NCBI GenBank assembly: GCA_964023275.1
Contig: OZ029929.1
Coordinates: 248,001 to 312,000 of the forward strand
From: Norana najaformis
Taxonomy: Eukaryota; Annelida; Clitellata; Crassiclitellata; Hormogastridae
Direction: 5' to 3'
DNA length: 64,000 nt
This document shows, piece after piece, positions 6,345-62,445 of this stretch. Positions within the stretch are counted from its first letter, which is position 1; each line of letters opens with the position of its first letter. A model generated the notes under the pieces. The model had not been told where the DNA came from. It worked only from the letters and a program-made list of their open reading frames with translations, and searched no databases. A program made the translations under genes and the position numbers.

Positions 6345-6732
6345 CTAAGGATAGGTGCGAAATCCGATGGCTGATGCTGCAGAGGCTGTGCATGATGATG
6401 CTAGGCTCGACCTCTGCTTCCTCGAGTCTCGCATGGCTGCGTCGTCATCATCGATATCGTCGTCATCATCATCGTCGCTCGTGCAGCTCGGTGTATCGTC
6501 GATGTCAATGTCTGGCGAATCCGGTGAAGCGTGACGGTGGTTCCGATCGAATTCGTCCATCGTTGGTGACGGAGTGGACCGAGCGCAGACGCTGTTGCTG
6601 AGGCAGACGGACGACGATGATGATGCTCCTCCTGCTCCTCCAACTGCTGCGCTTGCAGAGGCGCTCGAAGATGGAAGAGATAGATGAGCGCGTGATGTCG
6701 CTAACATCGATGAATTTTGACGATGCAGGAGT
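6345..6732 (-). CDS. Six3/6: Six3/6 coding exon 2 (C-terminal tail and stop)
   Basis: A polypyrimidine-bearing acceptor (TTTCCATTGTAG, AG at 6734-6733) opens an exon whose first base completes the split Arg codon of exon 1 (AG|A). The joined protein reads KNR then LLHRQ, close to the KNR-LQHQ join of vertebrate SIX3. Exon lengths 668 + 388 = 1056 nt give 351 residues with no stop until TAG at 6345. The tail is Ser/Ala/Gly-rich, then SPDSPDIDIDD and a run of Asp at about residues 309-320; an acidic Ser/Asp tail is common in invertebrate Six3/6. This makes a 14.7 kb intron (6733-21451). The link is an inference from phase, orientation and the short join motif; an RNA read across the junction would prove it. 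Alternatively it is a chance acidic ORF. Confidence 0.7.
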
Positions 6733-6919
6733 CTACAATGGAAACGTCATCAGGACAAAACTATAGAGCAGATTCACCTCTGAAACCATTTCGCCTTTAA
6801 TAAAAGGTCATTCGTCGTAAAAAATATGTGTTGCATTGCCGTATATGTTGAACGGGAAATCTATGTAACAAAATGTTTAGACCTGAATGACGTCAGAACT
6901 GCATAGGCAGTAAATTTCA

Positions 6920-7110
6920 AAGTTTTCGTAATCGTAATCATAAACTCGAGATTTCTACAGCGCCCAACGAAAGCTGAGTCGCGAGAATCAGCTTATTCAC
7001 AGGCACTAAGTCCAAACAAAATCCATATGCAAGAAGGGTTCGATTCCAGGTCAAGATCCAAGAGTCAGGCAGAAAGGCAGTCAGACGACTACGGTAGGTG
7101 ATGTTTGAAA
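6920..7110 (-). mobile_element. CR1/L2-like 3' UTR fragment (dispersed family A)
   Basis: It begins with a GTAATC-repeat tail and continues as the AACTCGAGATTTCTACAGCG block that recurs at 35705-35850, 36405-36595, 50085-50275 and 53398-53520 (same orientation) and 45090-45250 (opposite). The copy at 36405 is contiguous with an RT-coding element, which identifies the family as 3' ends of a CR1/L2-like retrotransposon. Confidence 0.65.
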
Positions 7111-7149
7111 TTGGATAGCTTTGGACCGATCTCTGAAAACACCCGAGAA

Positions 7150-7860
7150 CTAAACACTGTCATTTTTGTTGTTGTTACTATTATTATTATTATTATTATT
7201 ATTATTATTATTATTATTATTATTATTTATTATTATTATTATTATTACGAACAATTTTTAACGCGCTCAAAGTCAAACGGAAATGCGAATCGGAGGCGCG
7301 GTTATACAGTCGCCAGTTAAAAAGAGTTAGATATCCAGCTGCTTAAAAGTCAGTGAGACATGGTGAGTTTTCAGGCGTTTCTTAAAGCAAGAAAAGGAGT
7401 TCAAACTTCGGAGAAACATTGGTAGACGGTTCCATTACTTCCGGGCAGCGGTGTGGAATGCCGGAGAGCCCAGGACAGTTCTGCATCGTGGCTCAACCAA
7501 AGGACTCGTAACTCAAGATCGTAGGCTGCGGGGAGGGATGTAAGGAGCGACTAAAGACTGAAGGTAGTTAGGAGTGCTCATGGTAAGAGCTTATCAGTCA
7601 TACAAGCTAGTTTAAATCTTATCCGGAATTCCGTAGGAAGCCAGTGCAGCTGGCTTAACAGCGCTAAGGAATTTGTGCGAGGAGGTGCACGCAGCACCAC
7701 ACGAGCCAGGGAATTTTGAATGCGTTGAAGTTTTAGTTTTTTGAGTTCAAGATTTGAGATACCGGTAAAAACCGAGTTGGCATAATCAAGGGAGAACAGA
7801 CCAGAGAACAAGCAACAGTTTTCTATAGTCTGCTCTCCCCTTGATTAAGCCAACTAATAA
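7150..7860 (-). mobile_element. CR1/L2-like retrotransposon, 5'-truncated, with (ATA)n tail
   Basis: The minus-strand frame at 7578-7811 encodes LDYANSVFTGISNLELKKL, then LQRIQNSLARVV and a LSQLHWLPTEFRIRFK block, the conserved C-terminal region of CR1/L2-type polyproteins. The 3' UTR runs to a (TAA)n tract at about 7165-7246, in the position of a microsatellite 3' tail. It is truncated at about 7860. Confidence 0.8.
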
Positions 7861-7916
7861 ACTACATATAAGACAAATTTTAAACTGCGTTATGTGCTTG
7901 TTATGTGTAATAAATG

Positions 7917-8115
7917 CAACATCGGTGTAATATGCTAATCAACATCGGTGTAATATGCTAACAACATCGGTGTAATATGCTAATCAACATCGGTGTAATA
8001 TGCTAATCAACATCGGTGTAATATGCTAATCAACATCGGTGTAATATGCTAATCAACATCGGTGTAATATGCTAATCAACATCGGTGTAATATGCTAATC
8101 AACATCGGTGTAATC
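7917..8115. repeat. 23-bp tandem repeat, about nine copies
   Basis: The unit AACATCGGTGTAATATGCTAATC (shown in part: AACATCGGTGTAATATGC) repeats with almost no divergence; one unit is shorter and the last ends ATCATGCTG. The near-identity points to recent expansion. It lies inside the Six3/6 intron. Confidence 0.95.
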
Positions 8116-8171
8116 ATGCTGATCTTTTTAGAGGTCTTTAACTAGCAAACACACTGCGACTTGGTCTAAGC

Positions 8172-60530: not shown

Positions 60531-60692
60531 AAGTTAGCATATCAGTAATTAGTATATAACCTAATTAGCATATCAAATAATTATATCATATAATTAGCAC
60601 ATCACTAATTAGCATATAACCTAATTAGCATATCAACTAATTAGTATGTAACCTAATTAGCATATAGCCTAATTAGAATATCACAAAATTAG
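60531..60692. promoter_or_regulatory. 16-bp-periodic array of TAATTA homeodomain sites upstream of Vsx
   Basis: Nine TAATTA cores start at 60546, 60562, 60578, 60591, 60606, 60622, 60638, 60654 and 60670, i.e. every 16 bp with small slips. Five of them continue as TAATTAGC. Degenerate units (GTTAGC, AATTAGC) extend the array at both ends. TAATTA is the core site of Q50 paired-like homeodomains such as Vsx. The array lies about 2.1 kb upstream of the Vsx ATG and about 0.5 kb past the stop of the bZIP gene. It could be a functional cluster or just an AT-rich minisatellite. Confidence 0.5.
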
Positions 60693-61189
60693 CTAAATTC
60701 TCCAGACGTCAGAATTGCTCCAAGTCCGTGCAAGAGCAGACATGGACAGCTGCGCTTGGAGTATAAACAGGTGGAATTCAAACAGTCATGCATGAGTGAA
60801 GGGCTTACGCAACAAGACATACATCAAAGGTAAACAAGTGAATAAGAAACAACACGAGCGAAGCTACTAAACAACTATGCGTTAAAATGTTAGTATCAAA
60901 AGCATCTCATTGGTTTCTATAGTAACCTATAGTCGCTTGAACACAAACTTAATGATGAAAAGAAGTGTTTGTAAAAGACAACCAACTGTTCTGTCTGCTT
61001 GCTCTGAGAATCAGTCAAGCGTGACTGAAGGGCAGTTTGAGACAGTGCTATCAGTTTGTTGAGCTCTTAAGTAAACAGTTAATTGAGGACACTTCTTAAC
61101 TAATTGAAGCCATTGAAACAGTCATGCATCAGCTCATCGCAACGCACCATCGACCCTAGGAGACACTGAAATTAGGAGCTTCAGCTCGA
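60693..61189. other. Likely 3' UTR and flank of the bZIP gene
   Basis: Unique sequence directly downstream of the bZIP stop, with no coding potential. Minus-strand AATAAA-like motifs occur further down near 60268-60275. Confidence 0.4.
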
Positions 61190-61657
61190 CTAGATGGGCG
61201 ATTTAGCATATAGTCCAATGACACGCAGCTGTCCGAAGCAGTTCAATTGGGGCTTCTGGAACGGATGCTGTTGGAATGGTTCTGCCACCAGGAAAGGAAT
61301 AGAACTGGTCTCATTCCGTCCATGGTTGTCCTGGCAACTCGTGTCAACCGGACCAGAACCGTTCTGCTTCAGTGCGCAACAGTTCTGGATCGATAGTTCC
61401 GCAGCGATTGCGGTTCCTGGGCTGGAACCGATCTGAAACTGTGCCTGGAACGTTTCCGCTGAGTTGGAACCGACCTGGGTCGTCGAAGCGTCTACAGTAT
61501 GCAACTCCTTCAGGTCGGACTGTTCCGTGAGATGAAACGGAGCGGAACAGAACTGCTTGTGATGCATGATGGAAGCGATGATAAGCGACAGTTGACGCCT
61601 GTAGACTTCCTTCTCCTGATTCAGTCGCTCGTTTTCCTTCATCAGCCGATGATGCTC
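61190..61657 (-). CDS. bZIP transcription factor, last exon (zipper and C-terminal tail)
   Basis: The acceptor ATCATACAG (AG at 61659-61658) opens the exon with EHHRLMKENERLNQEKEV. Counting from the basic-region Asn as 0, heptad positions 18, 25, 32, 39 and 46 are Val, Leu, Leu, Tyr and Ile. His at 53 and Cys at 57 reproduce the H-x3-C end of the zipper seen in Fos, ATF3, JDP2 and BATF; ATF2 has H-x2-C. The remaining tail of about 115 residues is Gln/Ser-rich and not recognised; it ends at a stop at 61190. The family heterodimerises with Jun-type proteins on AP-1/CRE sites. The exact member cannot be settled; Asn29, Leu43 and Ser58 agree best with BATF. Confidence 0.75.
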   Translation of the reverse strand, partial: EHHRLMKENERLNQEKEVYRRQLSLIIASIMHHKQFCSAPFHLTEQSDLKELHTVDASTTQVGSNSAETFQAQFQIGSSPGTAIAAELSIQNCCALKQNGSGPVDTSCQDNHGRNETSSIPFLVAEPFQQHPFQKPQLNCFGQLRVIGLYAKSPI

Positions 61658-61840
61658 CTGTATGATGAATCAACAGACGCATATCATACACCTCCCTTAT
61701 TCAAGACACAGTTATCTGCAACAATAGTAACTTCTAATTAGTAACTTCTATTGCGCCATTGTCTAATGCGCAGGCGTCAACCAGTGGCGCATCAAAGCCA
61801 AGCCGCAATCTGGTCAAATATCCAGAAGGTCTGTGCTGAG

Positions 61841-61902
61841 AGAGAGAGAGAGAGAGAGAGAGAGAGAGAGAGAGAGAGAGAGAGAGAGAGAGAGAGAGAG
61901 AG
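61841..61902. repeat. (GA)n microsatellite in the bZIP intron
   Basis: Perfect GA for about 62 bp in the 620-bp intron between the basic-region exon and the zipper exon. Confidence 0.98.
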
Positions 61903-62277
61903 CCTAAGCCTATGGTGAATTAGCCGAATAAAGGCACAGCTATTAGGTTTGCCTCAAATTGTTAGGCCTAATTAAAGGCAGTCATGAGCACGATTAAAAT
62001 TTACAGGCAGGGATAATAGGCACATTAATATTAAGTCTAACTGAAGACAGTTATTAAGCTGACTTAAATCATTTGGCCTGATTTACTGACGTGGTTTGCT
62101 AATTAAACCCAGTTATTATTATCTATTTATTAAATCGATTGATTGATTGATTTATGTATTTATTTATTCATTCATTCTTTCTTTCTTTCATTCATTCATT
62201 AAGGAGGAGTAGACGTATGAGGAAGAGAAGAACAAGAACAACAAGAACAACAAAAAGTTAGAGTGTCGTAAACTGAC

Positions 62278-62445
62278 GGTGGCGACATCTATGGCCGATG
62301 CTTTGAGTTTCGTTCGGTATCTTTCCGCTGCTCTTCGATTGCTCTCCTGTCGCCTCCGCTTCCTCTCCTCCTCCTTAGAAGAACAGGATGAAGATGCAGA
62401 CCATGTCGTCACCCTCCTCCCTCCACCACCGCCTCTGCTGCCCAC
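62278..62445 (-). CDS. bZIP transcription factor (AP-1/BATF/ATF3-like), exon with basic region
   Basis: This internal exon encodes a Ser-rich lead-in and the DNA-binding basic region RKRRRQESNRRAAERYRTKL, which fits the bZIP signature N-x7-R with the Ala-Ala pair. Tyr stands where Fos/Jun/ATF3 have Cys and BATF has Ser. No in-frame ATG precedes it and an in-frame TGA lies just upstream, so a 5' exon must exist. The true 3' splice acceptor is unsure (AG at 62447, 62439 or 62436). The donor ACC|GTCAGT at 62277 is chosen because joining it to the next exon keeps the leucine heptads in exact register. The gene is partial here: upstream exons were not found between this exon and the window edge. 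Confidence 0.75.

Follow-up and report, generated by a model that had tools for sequence, protein, structure and literature searches.

The 64-kb window analyzed here (C17:248001-312000, C17 being contig OZ029929.1 in the 608-Mb, 17-contig genome of the clitellate annelid Norana najaformis) very probably holds one instance of an old neighborhood of the homeobox genes Six3/6 and Vsx and an LRR gene, which was duplicated in clitellate ancestry and is collinear on C17 and on a second contig, C12. In other animals, Six3/6 and Vsx are DNA-binding regulators of eye and forebrain/anterior development. A first-pass annotation of the window had described Six3/6, Vsx, and a bZIP gene as lying in a row on one strand, and our gene models bear this out: with splice sites read from the sequence and all splice junctions in frame, Six3/6, Vsx, and a divergent bZIP gene are consecutive on the minus strand, the first two as complete genes.

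A collinear Six3/6-Vsx-LRR block on two contigs

The window Six3/6 encodes a complete protein of 352 amino acids (aa) from two exons, without internal stops. Its Pfam matches to SIX1_SD (159.4 bits) and Homeodomain (50.5 bits) fall within a single frame (21409-22158; positions are those of the window unless a contig is named). When 18 genome rows and three human reference sequences were placed in one tree, it grouped with SIX3, and not with SIX1 or SIX4, at 100/100. Vsx encodes a complete protein of 511 aa from five exons, likewise free of internal stops, with a PRD-type homeodomain (Pfam, 81.9 bits) directly followed, as read from the sequence, by a stretch that we take to be the CVC domain. 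The exon carrying the homeodomain (~48.9 kb) and that carrying the homeodomain end and CVC stretch (~45.6 kb) were located by a motif scan. The OAR match stayed below the cut-off of 20.1 bits both in the assembled protein (17.5 bits) and for the exon alone (19.1 bits).

A search of the genome for the SIX family, in which 18 of 20 candidates matched, placed five genes with human SIX3 and eight with human SIX1 in this tree; the remaining five, two of them very divergent, are Six4/5-type by eye and by elimination. A 60-aa Vsx query returned five matches from 33 scored candidates: the window itself, C12:9097221-9097400(-), two places 30 kb apart on C5, and one on C6, with identities to the window exon over 60 aa of 95% (C12), 90% (both C5 matches), and 88% (C6). 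Two of the five Six3/6-type genes have a Vsx match within 60 kb, namely that of the window, at 23.8 kb, and that at C12:9044380-9044721(-), at 52.8 kb. The order and orientation of the pair agree between the two contigs, and the 21-row tree joins the two Six3/6 genes as sisters (88/91). Past Vsx, C17 carries an LRR-FN3 gene read as one long frame (C17:321118-322977, +). Among the 88 match rows obtained from 71 scored of 212 candidates, its best other match is C12:9159697-9161565(+), which again lies beyond Vsx (46% identity, 507.6 bits; next match, 361.1 bits). Since Six3/6, Vsx, and the LRR gene occur in the same order and orientation on both contigs, we interpret them as a duplicated block.

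Synonymous divergence (dS) between C17 and C12, estimated by a simple method and near saturation, was 1.04 over 191 aa of Six3/6 and 2.48 over 794 aa of the LRR gene; for the Vsx exon it was 0.80, from an alignment of 69 aa that includes nine aa from beyond the exon. These values argue against an allelic or haplotig duplication, which we rejected; the C17 and C12 copies look old and non-allelic. In the scenario that we favor, segmental or whole-genome duplication in the ancestry of this clitellate genome would have copied a block in which Six3/6 and Vsx were already neighbors, and their closeness would reflect plain descent rather than new selection. The recurrence of the collinear block within one genome is what points to an inherited link beyond chance.

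Several observations weigh against this interpretation or narrow it. The 88/91 for the Six3/6 sisters falls short of the tool's strong mark (95/80), and tree support for the block concerns Six3/6, Vsx and the LRR gene having been compared by match scores. Nor does dS single out the C12 copy, the window Six3/6 differing from the C7 Six3/6 by 1.00, and for three of the five Six3/6 genes (on C10, C7, and C1) the contig holds no Vsx match. The block is also short: its extension to a HIPK-like gene, 115 kb past Six3/6, was tried and rejected, as this neighbor has a relative on C1 and none on C12 at E 1e-40 or better. LIN52, a neighbor of VSX2 in the human genome, was rejected as a deep Vsx neighbor in the same way, its sole match lying on C4, a contig without a Vsx match. 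Over the 264 kb of C17:148001-412000, a motif scan, which a motif-split homeobox would escape, recovered only two homeoboxes, Six3/6 and Vsx, and no further one such as NK2.2 or Islet. On C12, the interval between the block genes was read in part.

Chance expectation for the Six3/6-Vsx pairs

The two Six3/6-Vsx pairs within 60 kb compare with a uniform expectation of 0.0039, and a fraction of 0.0007 of 20,000 label shuffles over 163 homeobox places reached two such pairs; at 500 kb the fraction was 0.008. The 60-kb limit was set after the pairs were seen, and the 163 places represent part of the genome's homeoboxes. From 433 first-look candidates, 150 homeobox rows were scored, 141 of which entered the shuffles; the nine left out by hand comprised six extra homeodomains of multi-homeodomain genes and three homeodomains of Six genes already included. 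The C5 Vsx pair was treated as one locus (four Vsx loci in all), and NK2 was represented by nine places matching both the homeodomain and the SD-like stretch, homeodomain-only or weaker NK2-like rows being left out. Coincidence, in which Six3/6 and Vsx are unrelated genes that happen to be neighbors, can draw on the very large number of homeobox genes in this genome, yet the existence of a second collinear copy that includes a third gene, set beside the expectation and shuffle fraction above, renders it highly improbable.

Homeobox linkage elsewhere in the genome

The surroundings of the C12 copy include two further homeobox genes, both assigned to family by eye: an NK2.2-type gene at C12:8988745, 55 kb beyond Six3/6, with a homeodomain and an SD-like stretch, and an Islet-type gene at C12:9484258, 0.39 Mb beyond Vsx. 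Queries against the genome yielded nine NK2 places that match over homeodomain and SD-like stretch alike and, at an identity of at least 86%, six Islet places. Taking Six (18), Vsx (4 loci), NK2 (9), and Islet (6) together, all six class pairs gave 11 pairs within 0.5 Mb, against a shuffle mean of 2.7 (fraction 0.0014 of 5,000), and Six with NK2 (3), Vsx (2), and Islet (2) gave seven against 2.03 (fraction 0.01). Across five distances, the fractions ranged from 0.0014 to 0.043 for all class pairs and from 0.010 to 0.071 for Six with the others. Among single class pairs, Six-NK2 showed three against 0.79 (fraction 0.05) and Vsx-NK2 two against 0.16 (fraction 0.013). Once the C12 block is removed, the pairs left at 500 kb are one Six-Vsx, two Six-NK2, one Six-Isl, and one Vsx-NK2; both classes and distances had been picked after the C12 block was seen.

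Other homeobox neighborhoods were observed along the way. A Six1/2-type gene lies 210 kb from an Islet-type gene on C11 (9.41 and 9.62 Mb), and Six1/2-type genes lie near NK2.1-like genes on C7 (0.93 and 1.10 Mb; 166 kb) and C8 (17.94 and 18.25 Mb; 309 kb). Dense homeobox runs occur at C3:3.4-3.8 Mb, C3:7.7-8.0 Mb, and C4:29.68-29.84 Mb; five homeoboxes read there are Hox-like by eye, which suggests several copies of the Hox cluster. A homeobox near the C7 Six3/6 appears Cdx-like by eye. On C17 itself, the homeoboxes at 4.25 and 4.43 Mb were set aside as ANTP-class by eye rather than PRD, and a partial homeobox match lies at 14.53 Mb.

Gene models and repeats in the window

The exon models and the interval between Six3/6 and Vsx are collected in Table 1. 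The same donor, GTCAGT, opens three introns, one in each gene (window 21451, 57683, and 62277).

Table 1. Exons of the three genes and the Six3/6-Vsx interval, in window positions unless C17 is given
Feature	Position	Strand	Content
Six3/6 exon 1	21452..22119	-	Start codon, SIX domain, homeodomain; donor AACAG|GTCAGT
Six3/6 exon 2	6343..6732	-	C-terminal tail, stop; acceptor TTGTAG|A; in-frame junction reads ...AAAKNRLLHRQNSS...; no Pfam match when taken alone
Six3/6-Vsx interval	22120..43859	.	LINE-like frames and simple repeats, according to the listed open reading frames, the tandem repeats, and a scan for homeobox motifs
Vsx exon 5	43860..44253	-	MHKKSLEAA, OAR-like motif below cut-off, stop
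Vsx exon 4	45480..45660	-	Homeodomain end, CVC stretch; five genome matches
Vsx exon 3	48790..48913	-	First part of homeodomain, through ...PEDRIQ
Vsx exon 2	49990..50056	-	Basic stretch ending ...KRRH; acceptor GTGCAG|, donor CACAG|GT; in-frame junction to exon 3 reads RHRTIFT
Vsx exon 1	57684..58452	-	Start codon, octapeptide-like FAIHHLLGL; open frame, donor G|GTCAGT, frame continues into exon 2
bZIP exon 3	61190..61657	-	Zipper, then His and Cys, tail, stop
bZIP exon 2	62278..62373	-	Basic region NRRAAERYR; donor ACC|GTCAGT
bZIP exon 1 (probable)	C17:312127-312636	-	127-636 bases beyond the window end

No host gene was recognized in the 22 kb between Six3/6 and Vsx from the list of open reading frames and the homeobox motif scan, no family search having been made there. 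Reverse-transcriptase frames resembling those of long interspersed nuclear elements (LINEs) by eye occur both in this interval and in the Vsx introns (window 29558-31434, 36551-38948, and 52729-56674). The interval also holds two tandem arrays of the GGACAATAACCCCC type, in opposite orientation and ~600 bases apart (window 31518-31615 and 32211-32299), an arrangement like that of DNA element termini. Within a Vsx intron, AGAGCAGAAC-type units form an array of 660 bases (window 49213-49881), and 14 copies of a 21-base unit lie beyond the second bZIP exon (window 62879-63177). The large Six3/6 intron contains a 579-aa open frame (window 9427-11166, -) with a zf-AD match of 16.9 bits, below the cut-off; by eye it resembles a frame at C17:369995-370627, and the two may belong to a mobile or multicopy family.

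The neighboring bZIP gene

The first-pass annotation labeled the third gene AP-1-type and offered it as a counterpart of FOS, JDP2, and BATF, which it placed on human 14q. Basic regions of the AP-1 class carry the signature N-x-x-A-A-x-[KR]-[CS]-R, and ATF4 and ATF5 have Tyr at the Cys/Ser position. The window gene reads NRRAAERYR, with Tyr at this position, and thus does not carry the AP-1 signature. Its joined domain keeps the leucine-zipper register intact, with heptad residues V, L, L, Y, and I, and the assembled protein scores 22.3 bits against bZIP_2, exactly the cut-off. In a tree built with reference sequences, the gene sits on a long branch (2.37) without placement, ATF3, ATF2, and JDP2 being nearest by path, and its highest identity to these references is 32%, with JDP2. 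A PDB search returned ATF-4 as the top match (E 0.043), and an ATF3 query matched the genome at four places (C1 twice, C3, and C4), none of them on C17. Features favoring the label are a His at position 53 and a Cys at position 57, just past the zipper, AP-1-like by comparison with reference domains, and the ungapped scores against 18 human domains, which JDP2 heads at 86, followed by ATF3 (79), CEBPG (78), BATF (70), ATF4 (67), FOSB (60), and FOS (51).

On the combined evidence of the basic region, the tree, and the PDB and genome searches, we set the AP-1 link aside as unsupported, and with it both the label and the proposed correspondence to the human genes; a distant AP-1 kinship may still exist. 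Neither part of the gene has a close relative among its matches in the genome. Besides itself, exon 3 has no genome match under E 0.5, and an exon-by-exon search found no C12 match for either part of the gene up to E 10, the C12 interval having been read in part. We view the gene as a divergent bystander that would stand outside the Six3/6-Vsx block, and its position beside Vsx is likely a coincidence. As it lies between Vsx and the LRR gene on C17, it would either have been inserted there or have been lost from C12.

Origin of the Six3/6-Vsx link

Clitellates are reported to show a complete loss of bilaterian linkage groups and possibly an ancient genome duplication at their base (PMC11371463), which means that ancestral linkage could not be demonstrated from the window by itself. 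To the idea that Six3/6 and Vsx were joined during clitellate shuffling, before the block was duplicated and without any older link, we assign nearly an even chance. It accords with that reported loss and possible basal duplication, and the question of primary versus secondary clustering was left open by the authors of the snail study (PMC8848322); the NK2-type and Islet-type genes near the C12 copy, together with the linkage of Islet to PRD genes in other phyla (PMC7566022, PMC10726417), argue against it. A history of appreciable, if less than even, probability takes the block duplication further back in time, and both can hold: Six3/6, Vsx, NK2, and Islet would have shared one chromosome in the bilaterian ancestor, and the blocks seen here would be survivors of clitellate shuffling. 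Human 14q carries NKX2-1, NKX2-8, SIX1, SIX4, SIX6, VSX2, and GSC, and human 20p11 carries NKX2-2, NKX2-4, and VSX1 (PMC2211742); in the oyster, Vsx, Gsc, Prop, Otp, Rax, and Otx share a scaffold (PMC7566022); and in snails, Six4/5-Six1/2 is linked with Gsc and Otx, and Six3/6 of B. glabrata with Hlx (PMC8848322). These published linkages make it plausible that Six3/6 and Vsx descend from a common ancestral chromosome, and the excess of Six pairs and of all class pairs at 0.5 Mb points the same way. Against such depth stand the post hoc choice of classes and distances, fractions that rise to 0.043 and 0.071 (0.05 for Six-NK2 alone), and the few pairs left without the C12 block, as well as the separation of human SIX3, on 2p21, from VSX1 (PMC2211742) and the arrangement in Biomphalaria straminea, where Six3/6 does not share a scaffold with Six4/5, Six1/2, Gsc, and Otx (PMC8848322).

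The first-pass suggestion of remnants of one ancestral linkage group can accordingly be kept for Six3/6 and Vsx, whose link, given the twofold collinear block, appears inherited and fits the published linkages, with the human SIX3/VSX1 and B. straminea arrangements opposing it; for the bZIP gene it finds no support. Compatible with either history is the suggestion that shared long-range enhancers of the anterior nervous system tie Six3/6 to Vsx in a putative regulatory block. The absence of a recognized host gene in the 22 kb between them, the retention of the pair in two copies, and the role of both as eye and forebrain regulators elsewhere would fit, yet three of the five Six3/6 genes stand without Vsx, and we regard such a tie as rather unlikely. 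A broader proposal, which we advance tentatively and with some doubt, is that a bilaterian set of anterior regulators, in which Six3/6 and Vsx were joined by NK2-type genes and Islet, persists here as pieces of tens to hundreds of kb, one of them duplicated, despite the reported clitellate linkage loss, and that the survivors may be tied by shared anterior enhancers. Under the block duplication that we prefer, the wider interest lies in the use of homeobox linkages for rebuilding ancestral animal chromosomes. A Six3/6-Vsx neighborhood kept in two copies in a probably heavily shuffled genome is a marker that can be traced in further annelids as well as in molluscs and chordates, and a place for asking whether shared enhancers resist rearrangement. 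Moreover, where a genome is rich in duplicates, a claim of linkage can be tested against that genome's own copies.

Comparison with known homeobox linkages

The many homeobox genes and expanded Six genes found here fit clitellate annelids, Eisenia being reported with 363 homeoboxes and nine SINE-class duplications in its lineage (PMC4758240). In the available parts of the literature on homeobox linkage, we found no statement of a Six3/6-Vsx neighborhood. The SINE-class cluster (Six1/2, Six3/6, and Six4/5) resembles the present block in its Six3/6 member and in having been duplicated in spiders, where it occurs twice after whole-genome duplication, with one copy more degraded (PMC10726417). It differs in that the 18 Six places of this genome are scattered, none of the other 17 lying on C17 and no Six1/2 or Six4/5 adjoining the window Six3/6, whose partner is Vsx. 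The oyster linkage likewise associates Vsx with other homeobox classes, and an Islet-type gene shares the C12 stretch here; Six3/6, unnamed in the available part of the oyster account (PMC7566022), is here the nearest homeobox neighbor found for Vsx. With the NK2 (pharyngeal) cluster, the genome shares an NK2.2-type gene close to the Six3/6-Vsx pair on C12 and an NK2.1-type gene at 0.25-0.28 Mb from the two C5 Vsx matches, whereas its NK2.1-type genes are widely separated from its NK2.2-type genes. Human SIX6 and VSX2 are megabases apart, compared with tens of kb for Six3/6 and Vsx here. Of the first-pass comparison with human 14q, the FOS-JDP2-BATF parallel is unsupported for a bZIP gene that lacks the AP-1 signature, and the homeobox part stands, SIX6 and VSX2 lying together on that one chromosome arm (PMC2211742).

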